A DNA stretch of 64,000 nt, taken from NCBI RefSeq assembly GCF_024199905.1, contig NZ_JANAFB010000003.1, positions 1-64,000 of the forward strand. The letters run 5' to 3'. The position numbers and the translations under genes are program-made. Positions 42,999 to 51,540 of the stretch are shown here, one piece after another. Below the pieces are notes generated by a model that saw only the letters and a program-made list of their open reading frames with translations, was not told where the DNA came from and ran no database searches. Every line of letters starts with the position of its first letter. Within the stretch, counting starts at the first letter, position 1. The DNA comes from Rothia santali (GTDB taxonomy: Bacteria > Actinomycetota > Actinomycetes > Actinomycetales > Micrococcaceae).

Positions 42999-44120
42999 TC
43001 AACCGGATTCGCAGGCCACCCTGTCGGCGTAGCCGATGAGGCTCGTGACGAGCATGAGCACCTGAATGCAATTCCGCTTGCTGAACTGACGCGAGGAGAC
43101 GCCATGGACGCTGGCATGGCGGGAGTAGTAGTGAGGCACCTGGTCACCCTTGTGCTTCCAGAACTCCTCGTGCGCATTCCAGATAGGCAGCCATACGAAC
43201 GCTTCGCGGACGCCCATCTCGTCGATCTCGTCGGGGACGTCAGCTCCCCTCTTGCGATTCGTGATGACCCCGCGGGCCTTCCGGTCGGGGTAGAAGCGGT
43301 AGATCAGCGTGTCCAGCGTGACGGTGAACATGGCCTGGGCGGAGCGGGCGTGGCCGGCGCGCATCGCGCCGAGGCCATCGAGCGCGAAGCTCAGCTCGTC
43401 ACTGACCACCTCGTGGTCCGCCCGCTCCAGCACCGCGGCACAATCCTCGATGAGCGAGTCGTAGCAGTCGCAAAGCACTCGTCGTCGCCCTGCCCGGTCC
43501 TTCGCTCGCAGGAATCGAAGAGCCGTCCGGCCCCGTGGCACGAGGTAGAGCGGGATTCCCTCCTGCTCGACGAACGCGTGAACCTGGCTGGCCCTGATCT
43601 CATCCGCATGATCTTTGAGATTGGGCGGCAGCAGAGCGCGGTTGAAACCGCGGAGTGCTTCGGGGGCAAAGAACGGCCCGAGAGACCTTTGCAGGCCTTC
43701 CATGGCCTGCGCCTGCTGCTCCGAGATCCGCTTGAGCGTCTCTTGGGTCGCGGGATCGAGGACCGGTCCCTTCAACGCGGGCAGGTCGAGCGGCGGCATC
43801 GAGAAAGTGGGGACACTGGCGACGATCGACGCCATCTGCTCCCGGAGCCGTTCGTTCATCGGCGCGAAGGCCTCGCGGGCGATGGCGCTGTAGTCGGGCA
43901 TTGATGAGCGGACCTGCGCCTGCAGGGGCGCGAGGACGCTGGCAACGAGATCGTCCATGTTCGGCAGTAGCGACCGCGAGAACCCCGTTGGCATACGGAA
44001 GCCGACGCTTCGATCCTTCTGGTCGCCCTCGGACGACTCTTCCAGCTCCGACGCTCCTTCCTCGGCGCGGGAGGCGTCCTCGTCTTCAGGTTCGACCTCG
44101 TGCTCGTCGTCATCGTTCAC
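42999..44120 (-). CDS. HEPN-like protein with C-terminal RxxxxH motif
   Basis: The 373-residue protein opens with an acidic, disordered tail (residues 1-40, EVEPEDEDASRAEEGASE). A Pro-rich helical region follows (LPNMDDLVASVLAPLQAQVR). A C-terminal helical domain contains AHEEFWKHKGDQVPHYYSRH and ASVHG, i.e. R-H-A-S-V-H, the Rx4H signature of HEPN RNases; then SKRNCIQVLMLVTSLIGYAD. A family with this ending is widespread but unnamed to me. The GTG start overlaps the stop of the TIGR02391 gene by 4 nt, with GGAGGA as SD. It is the third gene of the candidate defence operon. Confidence 0.7.
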   Translation of the reverse strand: MNDDDEHEVEPEDEDASRAEEGASELEESSEGDQKDRSVGFRMPTGFSRSLLPNMDDLVASVLAPLQAQVRSSMPDYSAIAREAFAPMNERLREQMASIVASVPTFSMPPLDLPALKGPVLDPATQETLKRISEQQAQAMEGLQRSLGPFFAPEALRGFNRALLPPNLKDHADEIRASQVHAFVEQEGIPLYLVPRGRTALRFLRAKDRAGRRRVLCDCYDSLIEDCAAVLERADHEVVSDELSFALDGLGAMRAGHARSAQAMFTVTLDTLIYRFYPDRKARGVITNRKRGADVPDEIDEMGVREAFVWLPIWNAHEEFWKHKGDQVPHYYSRHASVHGVSSRQFSKRNCIQVLMLVTSLIGYADRVACESG

Positions 44121-44932
44121 GACGATCCTCCGTTGGACGCCGACGCGCCATCGAATCTCCGATGGACCATGGAGACTATCGTCAGCACTTCGAGCAGCTC
44201 GTCGTCGTTGATCGTGCGGTTCAGTCTTGGGTCGTGCGCCGTCGGGTTCCGGTAGAGGCCGTTCAGGCCCTTCACGAGATTCGCGAGCCCGGTCTGCTCG
44301 TCCTTCTCCGTCTGCGTCCGCAGCGAGTTGATCGCGAGCATCGGGACCCCGGACTTGCCGAGCGCCAAGGCGTCGTCGGCGAGCACGGCCCCATCGCCCG
44401 ACGCACCGGTCAGGCTCCGAAGACGGTCAAAGATGCTTTTGCTCGCCTCGAGGCAGGCATGGAAGTGCGCCTTCTTCAGGACCTCCAAGGAGCAGTATCG
44501 CAGCACCTCAGGATGGCACTTGCGGCGGTGGAGCTCATCGCGGATCGACGTGGCGATGCGAGCCGCTTCATCCAAGGTCTGGGCGACTGCGCCCTTGGCG
44601 ACCTTGCCCTCGTCATTGACCCGCAGTCCGACGAACGCAAGGTGCTCGTTGAGACGATCCTGGCGAAGAGCGAAGAGCTCCGGCTGACTGCGGTACCGCA
44701 CTGGGTCCATCGCCGTGACGATGCGCTTCGAGCTCTGGTCGTTATTCTGACGAGCGACGAAGGTCTCGCCGAGCCGGTCGCGCTTAGTCGTCGTCGGGAT
44801 CGGATCCTCCATGCGCAAGCGGAAGAGCAGATCGCCAATCTCGCGACCCGTCAACCCGTCCGACGTGTCCGCAAGGACATCGGAAATCGTCTTCAGTACT
44901 GTATAGGACCAAGGTGTTTGTAGCTCACTCAT
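44117..44932 (-). CDS. TIGR02391 (Ymh) family HEPN protein
   Basis: The 271-residue protein has an N-terminal winged-helix-like part (LKTISDVLADTSDGLTGREI, GDLLFRLR). The Ymh domain follows: SIFDRLRSLTGASGDGAVLA, PMLAINSLRTQTEKDEQTGL and LNGLYRNPTAHDPR, whose R-N-P-T-A-H is the Rx4H HEPN motif. This family is frequent in defence islands. I took the ATG at 44932 rather than the TTG at 44938. It begins 15 nt after the exonuclease VII-like gene and is coupled to the next gene. The motif is intact, so RNase activity is possible. Confidence 0.82.
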   Translation of the reverse strand: MSELQTPWSYTVLKTISDVLADTSDGLTGREIGDLLFRLRMEDPIPTTTKRDRLGETFVARQNNDQSSKRIVTAMDPVRYRSQPELFALRQDRLNEHLAFVGLRVNDEGKVAKGAVAQTLDEAARIATSIRDELHRRKCHPEVLRYCSLEVLKKAHFHACLEASKSIFDRLRSLTGASGDGAVLADDALALGKSGVPMLAINSLRTQTEKDEQTGLANLVKGLNGLYRNPTAHDPRLNRTINDDELLEVLTIVSMVHRRFDGASASNGGSS

Positions 44933-44947
44933 ACTCAAATCACCGGA

Positions 44948-46195
44948 TTAGCTCCCGTTCTGAAGATGCAACCCCCGTGCATCCGAAACCGTATTATTCA
45001 TATTTCTTAGGGCACGCTCAATGCTTTCCCCGTTACCAAGGCTTTTCTCGCCATTCTCAAGACGGCGAGCTCCTTCGGCTAGTATCATTCCCAGCTGCTG
45101 TTCATATTGAACCGTCTCTGCGAGAAACAACGTCCGGGCATCACTTGGGGTCCTGCAAACACGCACAACAGGATTTTTCACCGTCATGGGGTCACTCGCG
45201 TGCCCAACAGCGACCCAACACGGAACCTCGAGGGTCTCAAGATGAGGCTCTAATGCAGCGTGGACCTTTTCGAGGTCTTTCTTACTGCCGCCGCCATAAG
45301 CGACCACAATTGCATCCTGATCGAATTTGAAGGCTGCCAATGCACTGCTCATCTGCGCCGCGAAATTGGTTTTATTCCGATAGACGGTCCGGAGGCTGCA
45401 TTCCAGCTCCGGATGCTCCTCAAGCTCGGCTATGTCGCTGCGCGCAGCTTCACCGCCGGGGACTATAACCCCAACTCTCCATTTCTTCCGAGGCAACGCA
45501 CGTGAACTCGCGGCATCGAGAATCAGCCTTGGACCCGGTGCGGTCGATGCGAACGAGATATTGTTCATCTCGCCGGTCGCGAGCTGAATCTTATCGTGCC
45601 CCCACAGAAAGTCACTCAGCGATTTCAACAACTTGGTAACGCGTGCTACAGTTTGCTGATCCCCGTCTCGAACCGCGACATGCTGGACGCGCTGCGACGC
45701 GTATGCACCCCACCCGAAAATTAGCTGCGGAAGGAGCAAGTCCAACTCCTCGATGAGTGTTTGCCCTTCTTCTCCACATGCAGCCAGCGCGTCTTTGATA
45801 TCGTTTACACGATCTTCCGTCGATGGCTGGATCACATCGCCGATCTCAGCCCACACAACGGCTTCGAGCTCAAGCACACCGTCAACACTCGATGAAAACT
45901 CCCGCACGACTTCCCGGACGAAGTCAATCCGCTTGTTAAGAGCCAAGTGCGCCCTCTTGGACAAAGGACGCATAAGCATGCGTAGCACAGGACGCGGAGT
46001 CCTGGAGTACGCACCCCAGGTCCGGAGCGCCATCTCACCCGGCACGAGTTCGACCCCCGAATCAAGCCAAGCGTCAGCCAAACGCTCCTCACCTAGAGCC
46101 AGCATCTTGAGATACACACCGACGACCAGCGAGTTCATCAAGGCGTGACGTCCCTGGAAGCTAGAGATCTCATGATCGAGCGGTGCCTCAGTCAC
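44948..46195 (-). CDS. Exonuclease VII large-subunit-like protein, divergent
   Basis: The 415-residue protein has a C-terminal third that matches the XseA catalytic core: RVGVIVPGGEAARSDIAELE (cf. [17 protein letters not shown] in the genuine XseA here), then QDAIVVAYGGGSKKDLEKVH (cf. [18 protein letters not shown]). VPCWVAVGHASDP and VCRTPSDA follow (cf. [19 protein letters not shown]). The Asp, His and second Asp are kept but the Arg of ARGGG is Tyr. The N-terminal 240 residues lack the OB fold of XseA and form an unknown helical region (LMNSLVVGVYLKMLALGEER, LLLPQLIFGWGAYASQRVQH). No XseB-like subunit is nearby. The GTG start overlaps the ychF stop (GTGA). Confidence 0.65.
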   Translation of the reverse strand: MTEAPLDHEISSFQGRHALMNSLVVGVYLKMLALGEERLADAWLDSGVELVPGEMALRTWGAYSRTPRPVLRMLMRPLSKRAHLALNKRIDFVREVVREFSSSVDGVLELEAVVWAEIGDVIQPSTEDRVNDIKDALAACGEEGQTLIEELDLLLPQLIFGWGAYASQRVQHVAVRDGDQQTVARVTKLLKSLSDFLWGHDKIQLATGEMNNISFASTAPGPRLILDAASSRALPRKKWRVGVIVPGGEAARSDIAELEEHPELECSLRTVYRNKTNFAAQMSSALAAFKFDQDAIVVAYGGGSKKDLEKVHAALEPHLETLEVPCWVAVGHASDPMTVKNPVVRVCRTPSDARTLFLAETVQYEQQLGMILAEGARRLENGEKSLGNGESIERALRNMNNTVSDARGLHLQNGS

Positions 46196-47298
46196 TTCTT
46201 CCCGCTCCCTGACGCTCCTCCGTGCCGGAACTCCACCACGTCCCCATCCTTCATCACATACTCCTTGCCCTCCATCCGCACCTTCCCCGCGGCCTTGGCC
46301 TCGGTCATGGTGCCGGCGGCGTCGAGGTCGTCGAAGGAGACGATCTCAGCCTTGATGAAGCCGCGCTCGAAGTCGGTGTGGATGACGCCGGCCGCCTGCG
46401 GGGCGGTGTCCCCCTGCGTGATGGTCCAGGCGCGGGACTCCTTGGGCCCGGCGGTCAGGTAGGTCTGCAGCCCCAGCGTGGAGAAGCCGGTGCGGGCCAA
46501 CTTGGACAGCCCCGACTCGTCCTGCCCGGACATCTCCAGCATCTCGCGGGCCTCCTCCTCGGACAGCTCGACCATGTCGGCCTCGAGCTTCGCGTCCAGG
46601 AACACGGCCTCGGCCGGGGCGACCAGCTCGCGCAGCTGCTGCTGCTTCTCCTCGGAGGCGAGGACGGCGTCGTCGGCGTTGAAGACGAAGATGAACGGCT
46701 TGGAGGTCAGCAGGTTCAGCTCGCGCAGCTTCTCGGTCTCGAGCTTGGCGGCGGGCGCGCCGCGGAAGATGGTCTCGCCCTCCTCCAGGATCTTCTGGGC
46801 CTCGCGGTAGGCCTCGAGCTGGGCGGCGTCGCCCTTCTTGATCTTGACCTGCTTCTCCAGGCGCGGGATCGCGTTCTCGAGGGTCTGGAGGTCGGCGAGG
46901 ATCAGCTCGGTGTTGATGGTCTCCATGTCGGAGGCCGGGTTGACCGCGCCGTCGACGTGGACGACGTCGGGGTCGTCGAAGACGCGCACCACCTGCGCGA
47001 TGGCCTGGGCCTCGCGGATGTTGGCGAGGAACTTGTTGCCGAGCCCCTCCCCCTCGGAGGCGCCCTTCACGATGCCGGCGATGTCCACGAAGGACACGGT
47101 CGCGGGCAGGATCTTCTCCGACCCGTAGATCTCCGCCAGGCGGTCCAGCCGCGGGTCGGGGAGGTTCACGACGCCGATGTTCGGCTCGATCGTGGCGAAG
47201 GGGTAGTTCTCCGCCAGGACGGTGTTACGGGTCAGTGCGTTGAAGAGGGTCGACTTGCCGACGTTCGGCAGTCCCACGATTCCGATAGTTAAAGCCAC
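46192..47298 (-). CDS. ychF: Redox-regulated ATPase YchF
   Basis: This 368-residue Obg-family P-loop protein has [20 protein letters not shown] (G1), [20 protein letters not shown] (G3), FVFNAD (the NKxD position altered as in YchF/OLA1), and a C-terminal TGS domain with [20 protein letters not shown] and [11 protein letters not shown], ending VVEFRHGG. YchF binds ribosomes, prefers ATP and influences stress and translation. The GTG follows TAGACT by 8 nt (leaderless). Its stop overlaps the start of the divergent exonuclease-like gene, so the accessory operon may be read from the ychF promoter. Confidence 0.95.
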
Positions 47299-47389
47299 GG
47301 TGCCCCAGTCTATCCGGCCCGACGCCGCCCCGCATGCCCTGGTGCGTCACGCACGTCCGTCGGAGTCGTTGCCCAGGCGGTGCGTGGGT

Positions 47390-47502
47390 GACGACTCGTC
47401 ACCTGTGCCTCGGCGCCGCGTGCGACGAGTCGTCAGATGGACCTGGGCGGTTTGCGCGACGACTCGTCACCGTGACGTCATCGTCGCCCGTGACGAGTCG
47501 TC
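47390..47502. repeat. Four palindromes at exact 34-bp spacing upstream of ychF
   Basis: GACGACTCGTC at 47390-47400 and 47458-47468 and GACGAGTCGTC at 47424-47434 and 47492-47502. Centres are at 47395, 47429, 47463 and 47497, exactly 34 bp apart, and the central base alternates C/G, so successive sites are inverted. They lie 92-204 bp before the ychF start and just after the OsmC-like gene. An operator array or a family of short interspersed repeats are the main options. Confidence 0.85.
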
Positions 47503-47520
47503 GCCGCACCCCGGGATCGG

Positions 47521-48072
47521 TCAGTCCTCCACGCTCATCGTCACGCTCGTGGGGTGCTCGACCGTCCGGGAGACCGTGCAGTCCTTCGTCTGCGAGAGCT
47601 CGACCAGCCGCGGCACCATCGCCCGCGCCTTCTCCCCCGCGGACCCCTCGGGGAACCGGACGGAGAAGGAGAGCTCGACGTCGTCCAGCCGGCTCCCGCC
47701 GCCCTCGTCCGTGACCTTCAGCCCGCTCGCGCGCACGCGCAGCTCCTCCGGCTCGGCGCGGCGGGAGGAGACGACGTCAACGTCCACCGCGGAGCAGCCC
47801 GCGACGGCCGCGAGCAGCAGCTCGACCGGGGTCAGCAGGCCCTCGCCCTGGCCGAAGTCGACGGAGTCGCCGGCGGCGTTGGTCGCGCGGTAGTGGCGCA
47901 GGCCCACGCGCTCGACCTCGACGCCGCGGTAGCGGGGGTTCTCCTCGCGGGCGGTGGCCTCGGTCGCGGTCGGGCCCGTTGCGGTGACCCCGGTGGCGCC
48001 AGCAGGTGCGCCAGAAGTCGTGGCCTCGGCGGCGTTCTCGGCGGCTGTCCCGGATGCAGTTGATTCGCTCAT
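47521..48072 (-). CDS. OsmC-family protein
   Basis: The 183-residue protein has an Ala/Thr-rich N-terminal 40 residues, then the OsmC fold: RYRGVEVERVGLRHYRATNA, DFGQGEGLLTPVELLLAAVA, GCSAVDVDVVSSRR (conserved peroxidatic-type Cys), LDDVELSFSVRFPEG and SRTVEHPTSVTMSVED. OsmC/Ohr proteins reduce organic peroxides through two Cys; here the second is KDCTV. The frame extends upstream, but the ATG at 48072 is the natural start. Oxidative stress is the likely context. Confidence 0.85.
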   Translation of the reverse strand: MSESTASGTAAENAAEATTSGAPAGATGVTATGPTATEATAREENPRYRGVEVERVGLRHYRATNAAGDSVDFGQGEGLLTPVELLLAAVAGCSAVDVDVVSSRRAEPEELRVRASGLKVTDEGGGSRLDDVELSFSVRFPEGSAGEKARAMVPRLVELSQTKDCTVSRTVEHPTSVTMSVED

Positions 48073-48380
48073 GAACTCATCTTGCTCCACGGGAGCCACC
48101 GGCGTCGCTGGGTGTCTCCGACAGCGAAAAACGAGAGGTGCGCCTCTGGGTGGTCTCAGCGGCCTCACCCTCCCTCCCCACCGAGGAAGGACGCATCCGG
48201 CCGTCCGGCCCAACGCGTCCGGATCCGACTTACCGGGAGCGGACTCACACGACCCCTGCTCCGATAAGGCCAGATGCGCCCTCTCACCGCGACATTGCAG
48301 GAGGCAGCCGAGTCCGAGAAAGGGTTGTCTACGGCCGGACGGTCCCCGCCACACCAACAGCGAGACCTTTCCCGGACCAG

Positions 48381-48540
48381 CTCACTGACCGCACGGCTAG
48401 TATGTGGTTCATCTGACGAAGAAGGGGCGAGCATGCTCATCGAGAGGATTCGTGTCATGAAGCCGGCACACGTCCTACCGGAACGAATCGTGGACACGGC
48501 GGAGATCGAGGCGCTGCGCGGAACATCCGATGCCTGCGGA
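48381..48540 (+). pseudogene. Leader and 5' fragment of a KAS III gene (duplicate of 49789-49930)
   Basis: The first 160 bp repeat the leader and start of the KAS III gene: CTCACTGACCGCACGGCTAG..., then ATG (48433) and MLIERIRVMKPAHVLPERIV, versus MLKEGIRVMGTAEVLPERIV in the intact copy. Similarity ends at about 48540; the rest of the frame is not KAS III. The stretches 48073-48380 and 48541-48832 contain no gene I can support. Confidence 0.75.
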
Positions 48541-48832
48541 CGCGTGAGCCTTGAAGTTCCAAGTCCTACATGTGGAACTCCTTGTCTATTTCCGCAACGC
48601 GTGAGCCCATCGACGACCACTGAGGCAGCAGCAAGGAGAATTACACGAACACCCTCGCTACCGGCGTCCAGACATGGGATCCGCCGCAGTGCACAGTGCA
48701 CTTGGCGATCGACGCGGTTGCTTCCGGGTTCGCGTTTGACCGACGGCACCGCAAAGCTCCCGAAGCAACGTGGGCTCGAGCTTGAGCTCCCCGATGCGGG
48801 GCTGACGGATCGATTCGGGTCTGGAGAGGGAG

Positions 48833-49702
48833 GTGTCGGCACTGGTGGCCAAGCGCGATAACCCAACGCAGACGGGAGTCCTGACGACGAATATCGGGAG
48901 CATGCCTTGGCGTGCCTCAGGCAATGGTGAGACTCTCCTTTTCCTACACGGGCTCCTGACCAACGCTTCCTCCTGGGACGCCGTGATCGAGGATCTTGCT
49001 CGGGACTTCCGGTGCGTGACTCTCGATCTCCCCTTGGGCAGTCATACGTGCTCCACGCGGGAGAATGCGGAACTGAGCGTTGAGAGCCTCGCGACGGCTG
49101 TCTGCGAAGCCGTCGGTCAGTTGTGTCCCGAAGGCTTCGTGCTCATCGGCAGCGATACCGGAGGCGTCGTCGCTCAGATCACGGCTGTACGCAGACCCCC
49201 GGGCCTCACGCGCCTCGTCCTGCTCTCCTGTGACACCGAGAAGAACTTCCTACCCGCTGTCCTTCGGTACCTCCAGGTTGCCGCTCATGTGCCTGGCGCG
49301 ATGCAGGTTCTTCGACTGTCTCTCAGAAGCCGGTGGATACGGCGGCTGCCCATCGCCTTCGGCTGGCTCGTACGTCGAGAACTCAGCGAACGGGAGTGGG
49401 ACAGCATCGTCGCCCCTCTGAACAATCGCTGGGTGCGACGCGATCTCGGCAAGATCCTCCGCGGAATCTCGACCCGCTTCACCGTCAAGGCGGCCGAGGA
49501 GCTCGAGAGCTTCCCGCTGCCGACGCTGTTTCTTTGGGCCGACACCCGAAAGGTCTTTTCAATCGACAACGCGCATGCGCTGGCCGCGCGAATGCCTCGT
49601 GCGCGCGTGAAAACTGTTCCCGACAGTCTGGCTTTCAGTCACCTCGACCAGCCTGGATACGTATCTCAATCAATCAGGCAAGACGTGAAAGGAGACGGAT
49701 AA
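48833..49702 (+). CDS. Alpha/beta-hydrolase with Asp-type nucleophile elbow
   Basis: The 289-residue protein has LLFLHGLLTNASSWDAVIED, CVTLDLPLGSHTCSTRENAE and the elbow FVLIGSDTGGVVAQITA, where Asp replaces Ser as in haloalkane dehalogenase/epoxide hydrolase relatives. The acid is near LPTLFLWADTRKVFS and the His near SLAFSHLDQPGYV. The substrate is unknown. The start is GTG at 48833. Its 3' end overlaps a MetK-like fragment, and an intact KAS III follows, so it was part of a small biosynthetic operon. Confidence 0.8.
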   Translation: MSALVAKRDNPTQTGVLTTNIGSMPWRASGNGETLLFLHGLLTNASSWDAVIEDLARDFRCVTLDLPLGSHTCSTRENAELSVESLATAVCEAVGQLCPEGFVLIGSDTGGVVAQITAVRRPPGLTRLVLLSCDTEKNFLPAVLRYLQVAAHVPGAMQVLRLSLRSRWIRRLPIAFGWLVRRELSEREWDSIVAPLNNRWVRRDLGKILRGISTRFTVKAAEELESFPLPTLFLWADTRKVFSIDNAHALAARMPRARVKTVPDSLAFSHLDQPGYVSQSIRQDVKGDG

Positions 49703-49766
49703 GACGCGCTATTGCACATCCGAGTCCGTCACCGTTGGTCACCCGGACAAGGTGTGCGATGCCCTC
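49698..49766 (+). pseudogene. MetK N-terminal fragment
   Basis: The frame beginning at 49698 reads DKTRYCTSESVTVGHPDKVC followed by DAL, closely matching the N-terminus of S-adenosylmethionine synthetase (TSESVTEGHPDKICD). AAAGGAG lies just upstream. The match stops within about 20 nt of the duplicated KAS III leader, so the gene was cut there. Confidence 0.7.
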
Positions 49767-49843
49767 ACCGGCGGAATGCCTCAATCAACTCACTGACCGT
49801 ACGGCTAGTACGTGGCTTATTCAACGAAGAAGGAGGAACGAGC

Positions 49844-50815
49844 ATGCTCAAGGAAGGGATTCGTGTCATGGGGACGGCGGAGGTCCTGCCGGAACGGATC
49901 GTGGACACGGCGGAGGTAGCGGCCCTGTGCGGGATATCCGAGGAGAAGGCCCTGCAGCGGACCGGGGTCAGGACCAGGCGCTGGCTGAGCGACCACGAGG
50001 ACCCGCTTCTTCAGGGGGTCGCGGCGGCCGAACAGGCCATCCGGGCGGCGGGGCTTGAACCCGCCGACGTCGACCTGGTGATCAACGCCTCCGGGACCCC
50101 GATGCAGGCCATCCCGGACGGCGGGGCGCTGATCGCCGCGGAGCTCGGGCTGAGGGGACGATTCGCCTACTCGGTGCACGCGACCTGCATCTCGTTCCTG
50201 GTGGCCCTCCAGCAGGCGGCCTTCCATCTGGGATCCGGGCGAGCCGACCACGTCCTGATCGTGTCGACCGAGGCCGGCAGCCGAGGCCTGGACTTCGGGC
50301 AGCCGGAGAGCTCGATCCTCATCGGGGACGCCGCAGCCGCCGTGGTCGTGGGCCGGCCGGAGCGTCCGGACCAGGGCATCGTGGCCTCACGGTTCTCCAC
50401 GGACACCCACGGGATCCGCGACGCCAGGATCCCGGGCTTCGGCAGCCGGCGGCACGTCGGGGACACCGTGGGCCGGCCCGAGGACCACGTCTTCGACATG
50501 AAGGGCCTCAACCTCCTGCGCGGGGCCATCAACTGGTTCCCGCCGTTCCTGGAGTCGGTCCGCCCGGGCTTGAGCACCAGCGCCGAGGGGATCGATCGGA
50601 TCATCCCCCACCAGACCAGCAGGGCCGGGATGGAGCTGATGTCCCGGTTCTGGGGGTGGGAGAAGATGGTCGTCACGCTCGGCGAGGTCGGCAACACGAT
50701 CGCGGCCAGCATCCCCCTGGCCCTGCACCGCGCGGATCTGAAGCCCTCCGAGACCGCCCTGCTGGTCGGCACCGGCGCGGGAACCCACTACGGGGCGATG
50801 ATCGTCCGATGGTGA
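49844..50815 (+). CDS. 3-oxoacyl-ACP synthase III (FabH-like)
   Basis: The 323-residue thiolase-fold enzyme has catalytic Cys in YSVHATCISFLVALQQA (about residue 113), His in IDRIIPHQTSRAGMEL and Asn in GEVGNTIAASIPLALHRA. Motif TGVRTRRWL and the gating region GDAAAAVVVGRP fit FabH-like KAS III rather than HMG-CoA synthase. It probably condenses an acyl starter with a malonyl or other acyl carrier. The ATG has AGGAGGA 7 nt upstream. It overlaps the ABC ATPase gene, so the product may be exported by that transporter. Confidence 0.9.
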   Translation: MLKEGIRVMGTAEVLPERIVDTAEVAALCGISEEKALQRTGVRTRRWLSDHEDPLLQGVAAAEQAIRAAGLEPADVDLVINASGTPMQAIPDGGALIAAELGLRGRFAYSVHATCISFLVALQQAAFHLGSGRADHVLIVSTEAGSRGLDFGQPESSILIGDAAAAVVVGRPERPDQGIVASRFSTDTHGIRDARIPGFGSRRHVGDTVGRPEDHVFDMKGLNLLRGAINWFPPFLESVRPGLSTSAEGIDRIIPHQTSRAGMELMSRFWGWEKMVVTLGEVGNTIAASIPLALHRADLKPSETALLVGTGAGTHYGAMIVRW

Positions 50816-51540
50816 CCGAGGCTCCCTTCGTGGCCGTGGACGGCGTCGGGCGCTCGTTCGGGGAGGGCCCGACGCGGGTCGTCGCCCTGGCGGAGGTCAG
50901 CGTCGAGCTGCGCGGCGGAGAATTCTCGGTGATCGTCGGCGCCTCCGGCTCGGGCAAGAGCACCCTGCTCAACCTCGTCGGCGGCATGGACCGCCCCAGC
51001 ACCGGGTCGATTCGCGTAGGAGAGACGGAGATCGCGGCCCTCACGGACCGGGAGCTGACGCGGTACCGGAGGGAGCGCGTGGGCTTCGTCTTCCAGTTCT
51101 ACAACCTCATCCAGAACCTGACGGCCCGGGAGAACGTGGCGCTCGCGGCGTCGTTGGTCATGCCCGGCCGCGAGGCGGACGACGTCGCCGGGGACCTGCT
51201 GGAACGGGTCGGCCTGGGGCATCGGCTCGACCGGTTCCCGCGGCAGCTCTCCGGTGGCGAGATGCAGCGGGTCGCCATCGCCCGCGCCCTGGCCAAGCGA
51301 CCCGCGCTGCTCCTGTGCGACGAGCCGAGCGGTGCGCTGGACTCGACGACCGGGACCCAGGTGCTCGCGCAGCTGCAGGAGACGGCGCGGACCACCGACA
51401 CGGCCGTCGTCGTGGTCACGCACGACCGCGAGCTGGGGGCGGCGGCGGATCGCCTCATCCGGCTCCACGACGGCCGGGTGGTGGAGAACCGGCGCAACGA
51501 CCGGCCCGCGACCATCGGCGGGAAGGCGGGCGCGGGATGA
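50809..51540 (+). CDS. ABC transporter ATP-binding protein (MacB/LolD type)
   Basis: This protein of about 243 residues has Walker A VIVGASGSGKSTLLNLVGG, Q-loop FVFQFYNLIQNLTARENVAL, ABC signature LSGGEMQRVAIARAL, Walker B LLLCDEPSGALDSTTG and the switch His VVVVTHDRELG. It is of the LolD/MacB subclass that energises FtsX-type permeases. The ATG at 50809 overlaps the KAS III stop; GTG at 50812 would give the usual 4-nt overlap. The coupled permease follows. Confidence 0.95.
   Translation: MVTEAPFVAVDGVGRSFGEGPTRVVALAEVSVELRGGEFSVIVGASGSGKSTLLNLVGGMDRPSTGSIRVGETEIAALTDRELTRYRRERVGFVFQFYNLIQNLTARENVALAASLVMPGREADDVAGDLLERVGLGHRLDRFPRQLSGGEMQRVAIARALAKRPALLLCDEPSGALDSTTGTQVLAQLQETARTTDTAVVVVTHDRELGAAADRLIRLHDGRVVENRRNDRPATIGGKAGAG

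Follow-up and report, generated by a model that had tools for sequence, protein, structure and literature searches.

We describe short palindrome arrays that form a real, dispersed family and are, among the genomes searched, confined to two species of one genus, Rothia santali and R. halotolerans. Their unit is an odd palindrome of 13 bp, YGACGASTCGTCR, with the tolerated form YGRCGASTCGYCR. With a probability of roughly 0.45, we read these units as recurrent putative binding sites of a dimeric protein that acts chromosome-wide, following a logic like that of the Noc and SlmA systems.

An array downstream of an OsmC-family gene

The window, i.e., the whole 64,000-nucleotide stretch of R. santali DNA that was analysed, contains one such array, which an earlier note had reported as four GACGASTCGTC palindromes at exact 34-bp steps with alternating centre, located between an OsmC-like gene and ychF. 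Coordinates and domain matches confirm this description. The exact 11-mer occurs at 47390-47400 (centre C), 47424-47434 (G), 47458-47468 (C), and 47492-47502 (G), with start-to-start distances of 34, 34, and 34 bp. The features, with the copies given as 13-bp sites, are:

46192..47298, minus strand: ychF (YchF-GTPase_C, 5.1e-37)
47389..47401, no strand: copy 1, TGACGACTCGTCA, 13-bp site with centre C (from the sequence; 13-bp consensus from flank counts and the array tally)
47423..47435, no strand: copy 2, CGACGAGTCGTCA, centre G (from the sequence)
47457..47469, no strand: copy 3, CGACGACTCGTCA, centre C (from the sequence)
47491..47503, no strand: copy 4, TGACGAGTCGTCG, centre G (from the sequence)
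47389..47503, no strand: whole window array, period 34 (from the sequence, TRF, and array comparison)
47474..47485, no strand: GACGTCATCGTC, possible decayed extra copy with a one-base insertion, midway between copies 3 and 4
47521..48072, minus strand: OsmC-family gene (Pfam OsmC, 5.9e-12)

The stop codon of the OsmC gene lies 18 bp from the 11-mer of copy 4, and copy 1 is situated about 90 bp before the GTG start of the annotated ychF frame. The additional palindrome noticed earlier between copies 3 and 4 is present as well (TGACGTCA, 47473-47480) and is mostly contained in GACGTCATCGTC. TRF reports a 17-bp repeat of 2.8 copies with 9% indels at 47458-47505.

Under a first-order Markov model, 0.18 exact copies are expected in 64 kb and the probability of four or more is about 4e-5, spacing not counted. 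For degenerate versions with at most two mismatches, the window shows no surplus over shuffles (44 vs 48.0), so the signal resides in the exact copies. The earlier note took period and alternation to be hard to explain by chance. For the alternation this does not hold: four centres that are each G or C alternate strictly with a chance of 1/8, and in 24 arrays neighbouring centres are unlike in 20 cases and alike in 35. Centre alternation is true in the window array, is weak evidence, and is no rule across arrays.

Elsewhere in the window, the upstream region and first codons of a ketoacyl-ACP synthase III-like gene (ORF 49712-50815) are duplicated further upstream; the duplicate is truncated, after which similarity fades (48378-48560 and 49790-49990).

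Distribution among genomes

The 3.31-Mb genome of R. santali contains 70 exact copies of the 11-mer vs 4 of a reversed control, and that of R. halotolerans 33 vs 1. The other 33 Rothia genomes contain 0-6 exact copies each and the further relatives searched 0-11 (119 genomes altogether). R. halotolerans also provided the best match to the OsmC protein among named genomes (92%). One-mismatch versions are modestly enriched (156 vs 87, exact places removed). R. santali has 15 pairs of copies 6-28 bp apart, and such pairs are present in 3 of 396 genomes of the order, a draw that left out R. halotolerans; the other two genomes belong to a single other genus and carry one pair each (L315 and L316, copies 36 bp apart), identical in sequence. 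The pair pattern further matches two viral contigs, each with a single pair in the stretch retrieved. Neither the plasmid nor the phage collection contained DNA similar to the 221-bp array region, and spread by plasmid or phage was rejected on this basis.

A search for other over-represented palindromes in sampled DNA of R. halotolerans and of another Rothia genome, G003, had its signal drowned by the G+C-rich composition. Among the matches listed in literature searches, none on Rothia and repeats described these arrays, no title on R. halotolerans concerned repeats, and the 11-mer strings were matched only in fungus, plant, and fly-synapse papers.

Architecture of unit and array

Flank counts extend the site to 13 bp: of the 70 R. 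santali sites, position -6 is Y in 62 and position +6 is R in 65 (flank counts for R. halotolerans cover 30 of its 33 sites, three left out), and no flank is shared among copies beyond these 13 bp. At a genome composition of about 70% G+C, R. santali has 70 and R. halotolerans 33 G/C-centred copies; A/T-centred copies number 0 and 1, respectively. The 24 sampled arrays comprise 83 copies with centres G (45), C (36), and T (2), Y at -1 in 76/83, and R at +1 in 74/83. Their commonest mismatches mirror each other, with A replaced by G at position 2 (7 times) and T by C at position 10 (10 times). With its odd palindrome, fixed half-sites, G/C-only centre, and mirrored changes, the unit resembles the binding site of a dimer.

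For the array tally, clusters were chosen by hand in which two or more copies with no more than two mismatches lay within 40 bp, and each named locus contributed a single array; L123:2491 (68 bp), L153:2400 (47 bp), L148:2522 (30, 24), and L142 (60 bp) were left out. Arrays have 2-6 copies, and the period is regular inside an array and ranges from 19 to 40 bp across arrays. Examples are 24,24,24 (L102, L106, L116), 36,36,36 (L111), 27,27,27 (L124), 21,21,21,21 (L127 and, in R. halotolerans, L138), 24,24,24,21 (L128), and 20 (L145, L151, L186), with mixed periods of 24 + 27, 33 + 36, or 35 + 34 elsewhere. Sixteen arrays have two or more intervals; the period is exactly constant in nine of these and within 3 bp in 15, the exception being L148 (20, 40). 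The 34-bp period is hence exact in the window array but a property of that array and not of the motif; helical phasing at 34 bp was rejected for the same range of periods. Spacers of equal length have an identity of 0.48 within an array (42 pairs) vs 0.33 between arrays (462 comparisons). The arrays look like old tandem duplications whose spacers drifted while the palindrome did not. As a description, the tandem array of short interspersed repeats that had been listed among the options is supported.

Sites inside genes

In R. santali, 52 of the 70 copies fall in called genes and 45 of these read in frame as GAC-GAS-TCG-TCN, i.e., Asp-(Asp/Glu)-Ser-Ser; the respective numbers in R. halotolerans are 23 of 33 and 20, all called not from annotation but by a crude codon-usage script that is likely to have taken some 3' regions for coding sequence (e.g., L008, L120). 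The host genes scanned share no theme and include a DUF3418/HrpA-type helicase, NAD-glutamate dehydrogenase, a nucleoside hydrolase, and a CMD family member, among others.

Constraint inside genes acts on the DNA rather than on the peptide. The base preceding the 45 frame-0 sites of R. santali is T in 9 cases, vs 1.9% T at third bases (P 1.7e-7), and the following serine codon is TCA in 16 of 45, vs 2.6% of TCN (P 1.6e-14). The frame-0 sites of R. halotolerans behave likewise, with a preceding T in 5/20 (P 1.1e-4) and a following TCA in 7/20 (P 4.3e-6).

Alignment of the two sister species shows in-frame loop insertions that differ between them. The CMD-family gene has 29 additional residues in R. 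santali as compared to R. halotolerans. Conversely, the HrpB-like helicase of R. halotolerans has 51 additional residues and a five-copy array; at the DNA level, 163 bp in R. halotolerans face 7 bp in R. santali, a clean empty site with flanks that align at 79% and 87% (proteins 64% outside gaps), and small length differences follow further on. For a DAO-family oxidoreductase, the R. halotolerans gene contains an array where that of R. santali has a shorter, motif-poor stretch.

Sites between genes

Same-strand intergenic clusters of both genomes are nearer to the upstream stop codon than to the next start in 10 of 13 regions, a set that excludes two convergent and two divergent regions and those without a called neighbour in the fetched stretch. 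The exceptions are the window array (0.52 by the farthest copy), L104, and L110. Three or more 3' positions are occupied in both species, with a different array structure (L107/L145, L123/L186, L120/L134). The upstream gene's stop TGA is the palindrome's own TGA at L123 2491, L148 1501, and L186 1519.

No exact copy was found in the OsmC-ychF intergenic region of R. halotolerans, and the OsmC loci of 28 further Rothia had none either (two more gave a match without a locus and three no match). The R. halotolerans gap (L021 4429-4765) holds a run of the pentanucleotide CGGCT. It also has two GTGACGAGCG 24 bp apart (L021 4673, 4697), a pair that is only suggestive of a decayed array at the orthologous spot; the approximate hits in this gap were equalled in 22 of 300 shuffles.

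Position on the chromosome

Sites are depleted on the terminus side of the R. halotolerans chromosome. Its 33 sites are located on contigs C3 (19), C6 (3), and C7 (11), with none on C4 and C5, which together make up 1.37 Mb on the terminus side. The probability that all 22 clusters lie off C4 and C5 is about 6.5e-7, or near 1e-4 for the approximately 15 groups obtained by merging clusters within 5 kb, for a split chosen post hoc with the data already seen.

The map is based on dnaA, at 1006 kb of R. halotolerans C3 and at base 1405 of a 2.96-Mb contig of G003, and places the terminus opposite dnaA, at about 1.48 Mb in G003, with no dif site located. On G003, R. halotolerans C3 corresponds to 0-1000 kb, C4 to about 1010-1980 kb, C5 to about 1990-2405 kb, and C8 to near 2704-2717 kb, by anchors that are sparse and include some stray, conflicting ones. 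R. santali contig C23 joins the starts of R. halotolerans C8 and C7, and R. santali C44 is collinear with R. halotolerans C7 and matches G003 at 2567 kb, which places C7 on the origin side. The position of R. halotolerans C6 is uncertain; its anchors (308, 455, and 2418 kb of G003) are not near the inferred terminus, and in R. santali, pieces of C4 and C6 are joined on contig C10.

The bias is weaker in R. santali, where 34 of 48 clusters are on the origin side, six on the terminus side, and eight unplaced (P 1.5e-5 for the 40 placed; 0.007 with all eight unplaced counted on the terminus side); these clusters were placed by hand from whole-contig anchors, and the anchors and site loci sampled favour the origin side. 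By R. santali contig, the clusters off the origin side are:

Terminus side: C4, C6, C7 (twice), C11:84735, and C77
Unplaced: C8 (twice), C10, C18 (three times), C25, and C34

A constraint inside genes that exceeds the peptide, together with terminus-side depletion, suggests a chromosome-wide rather than a gene-regulatory role.

Proposed function and alternative explanations

A nucleoid-protein site was one of the options named in the earlier note, and it is the best-supported mechanism given the G/C-only centre, the DNA-level constraint in genes, and the terminus-side depletion, though still a putative one. We propose that each palindrome would be bound by a sequence-specific dimer, with one subunit per YGACGA half-site, and that this dimer might mark the origin-side part of the chromosome, much as nucleoid-occlusion or chromosome-organising factors do. 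Each array would expand as site and spacer are duplicated in tandem, after which selection would retain the sites while the spacers drift. In genes, only multiples of three would survive, which would give rise to D(D/E)SS-rich loops; between genes, sites would be tolerated mostly directly past stop codons. The array near ychF would thus act for the chromosome and not for ychF.

The six terminus-side clusters of R. santali and the periods of 19-40 bp without helical phasing count against this proposal, as do the modest enrichment of one-mismatch versions and the lack of surplus degenerate versions in the window. No binder was found, and none of the known families tested fits. Among 10 genomes, ParB_N genes occur once each in R. 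halotolerans, whose only ParB is near dnaA, and in eight other Rothia, and R. santali has an extra one. A Noc-like ParB paralogue common to both species was not found, and a Noc- or KorB-type binder, sought via ParB_N, was rejected for this reason. The second ParB_N match of R. santali is weak and lies on a separate, perhaps plasmid-borne contig (C66:13120-13326, L331); it is absent from the nine other Rothia.

The main rival, and a serious one, is a short repeat that is selfish or driven by mutation and whose character is intermediate between HIP1 and Rickettsia palindromic elements. In this view, a replication, repair, or mobility process makes and copies the palindrome, in-frame and 3'-end locations are where copies are tolerated, and no binding function exists. 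Arrays in unrelated genes and presence that varies between sister species fit this explanation, as does the position of 10 of 13 intergenic clusters nearer to the upstream stop, expected if promoters reject copies; for exceptional HIP sequences, over-representation has been proposed to be an epiphenomenon (PMC4390886). However, a transposed body would have common flanks, and none are seen. Near-identical palindromes amid diverged spacers would need selection, or conversion limited to 13 bp. Y1_Tnp (RAYT) occurs in 0/8 Rothia, and the gap on the terminus side is not predicted.

It is improbable that the arrays are RNA-level elements in which adjacent copies form stems past the stop codon that stabilise the 3' end or serve as terminator of the upstream gene, here the OsmC gene. 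The alternating palindromes give the minus strand of the window array a strong fold (-82.4 kcal/mol, z -5.8) in which copies pair 1+2 and 3+4, intergenic arrays tend to be close to stop codons, and the stop TGA lies within the site at L123, L148, and L186. Perfect pairing, however, requires alternating centres, so that like-centred arrays would not make such perfect stems, and neighbours agree more often than they differ; moreover, most copies are in called genes and many are single. A known structured RNA family was rejected, as Rfam gave 0 matches at gathering scores in the window at 44000-51000.

Even less probable is a local cooperative operator for ychF/osmC bound by a redox or stress regulator, the first option of the earlier note. 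The regular spacing between osmC and ychF invites this interpretation, but the motif is dispersed genome-wide, mostly in unrelated genes and with other periods, and exact copies are missing from the counterpart region of R. halotolerans and the 28 other OsmC loci; we rejected it on these grounds. The note had named genome-wide scatter without conserved 34-bp spacing as the observation that would speak against it, and the search of the genome and its relatives found such scatter. Taken as a whole, the earlier reading is partly supported. Least probable of all is selection for D(D/E)SS linkers, e.g., in a salt-tolerant lineage, with the palindrome as a codon-usage by-product: it would account for the 45 of 52 coding R. 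santali copies that read D(D/E)SS, but not for intergenic copies whose period is no multiple of three, for flanking T and A far in excess of codon usage, or for tolerated changes that mirror across the palindrome and alter amino acids.

A bolder extension of the proposal to binding sites is doubtful in our judgement. The palindromes could serve as chromosomal addresses for an undescribed actinobacterial factor of the nucleoid-occlusion or chromosome-domain type, with arrays that duplicate, move, and invade genes in frame, such that proteins like the HrpB-like helicase would carry loops set by a chromosome-organising DNA code. According to PMC7968930 and PMC7118173, Actinobacteria lack known key regulators of FtsZ or the Z-ring. 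A lineage-specific, terminus-depleted palindrome would serve as pull-down bait and offer a direct biochemical handle on such a regulator. Even if functionless, the family is a clear case, within a single genus, of 13-bp repeat arrays entering ordinary enzyme genes in frame, the sister species showing an empty site.

Comparison with known systems

REP/BIME elements are palindrome arrays after gene ends, whereas the Rothia copies are mostly inside called genes (52/70). The Y1 transposase (PF01797) was found in 0/8 Rothia genomes, R. santali and R. halotolerans included, and a REP/RAYT system was rejected for this and for the location, which is not extragenic. CRISPR arrays have repeats of about 21-48 bp, spacers of similar size, and cas genes; a CRISPR array was rejected as the conserved unit here is 13 bp, the stretches between units are 6-25 bp save one of 27 (L148), and the hosts are ordinary genes. 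The operator of KorB and the odd palindromes of the ParB family, with 13 bp and a G/C centre, resemble the Rothia unit in form but differ in sequence.

HIP1 of cyanobacteria is not known to have conserved flanks. It is an over-represented exact short palindrome, GCGATCGC, with a density near one per kilobase, as given in sections of PMC4390886. The Rothia palindrome, in contrast, has another sequence, occurs in 70 copies in 3.3 Mb, and is often arrayed. Rickettsia palindromic elements are dispersed and inserted in frame in unrelated genes according to an excerpt of PMC10969869, and the Rothia arrays are likewise in frame in unrelated genes. However, these elements are about 150 bp long with a conserved peptide, while Rothia keeps 13 bp only and the remainder is unrelated spacer.

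The Noc sites of B. subtilis (about 70 NBS) and the SlmA sites of E. coli (24-52 SBS) are palindromic and under-represented near the terminus, as stated in parts of PMC4726725. Unlike both, the Rothia sites are arrayed and have entered genes in frame, and unlike Noc, the two Rothia species are without a common ParB paralogue. Like Noc and SlmA sites, they number in the tens per chromosome (70 in R. santali, 33 in R. halotolerans) and are scarce on the terminus side (0/33 in R. halotolerans on C4 and C5, weaker in R. santali), a comparison that is post hoc and uses an inferred terminus. The resemblance to Noc and SlmA sites would be a likeness of logic, not membership.
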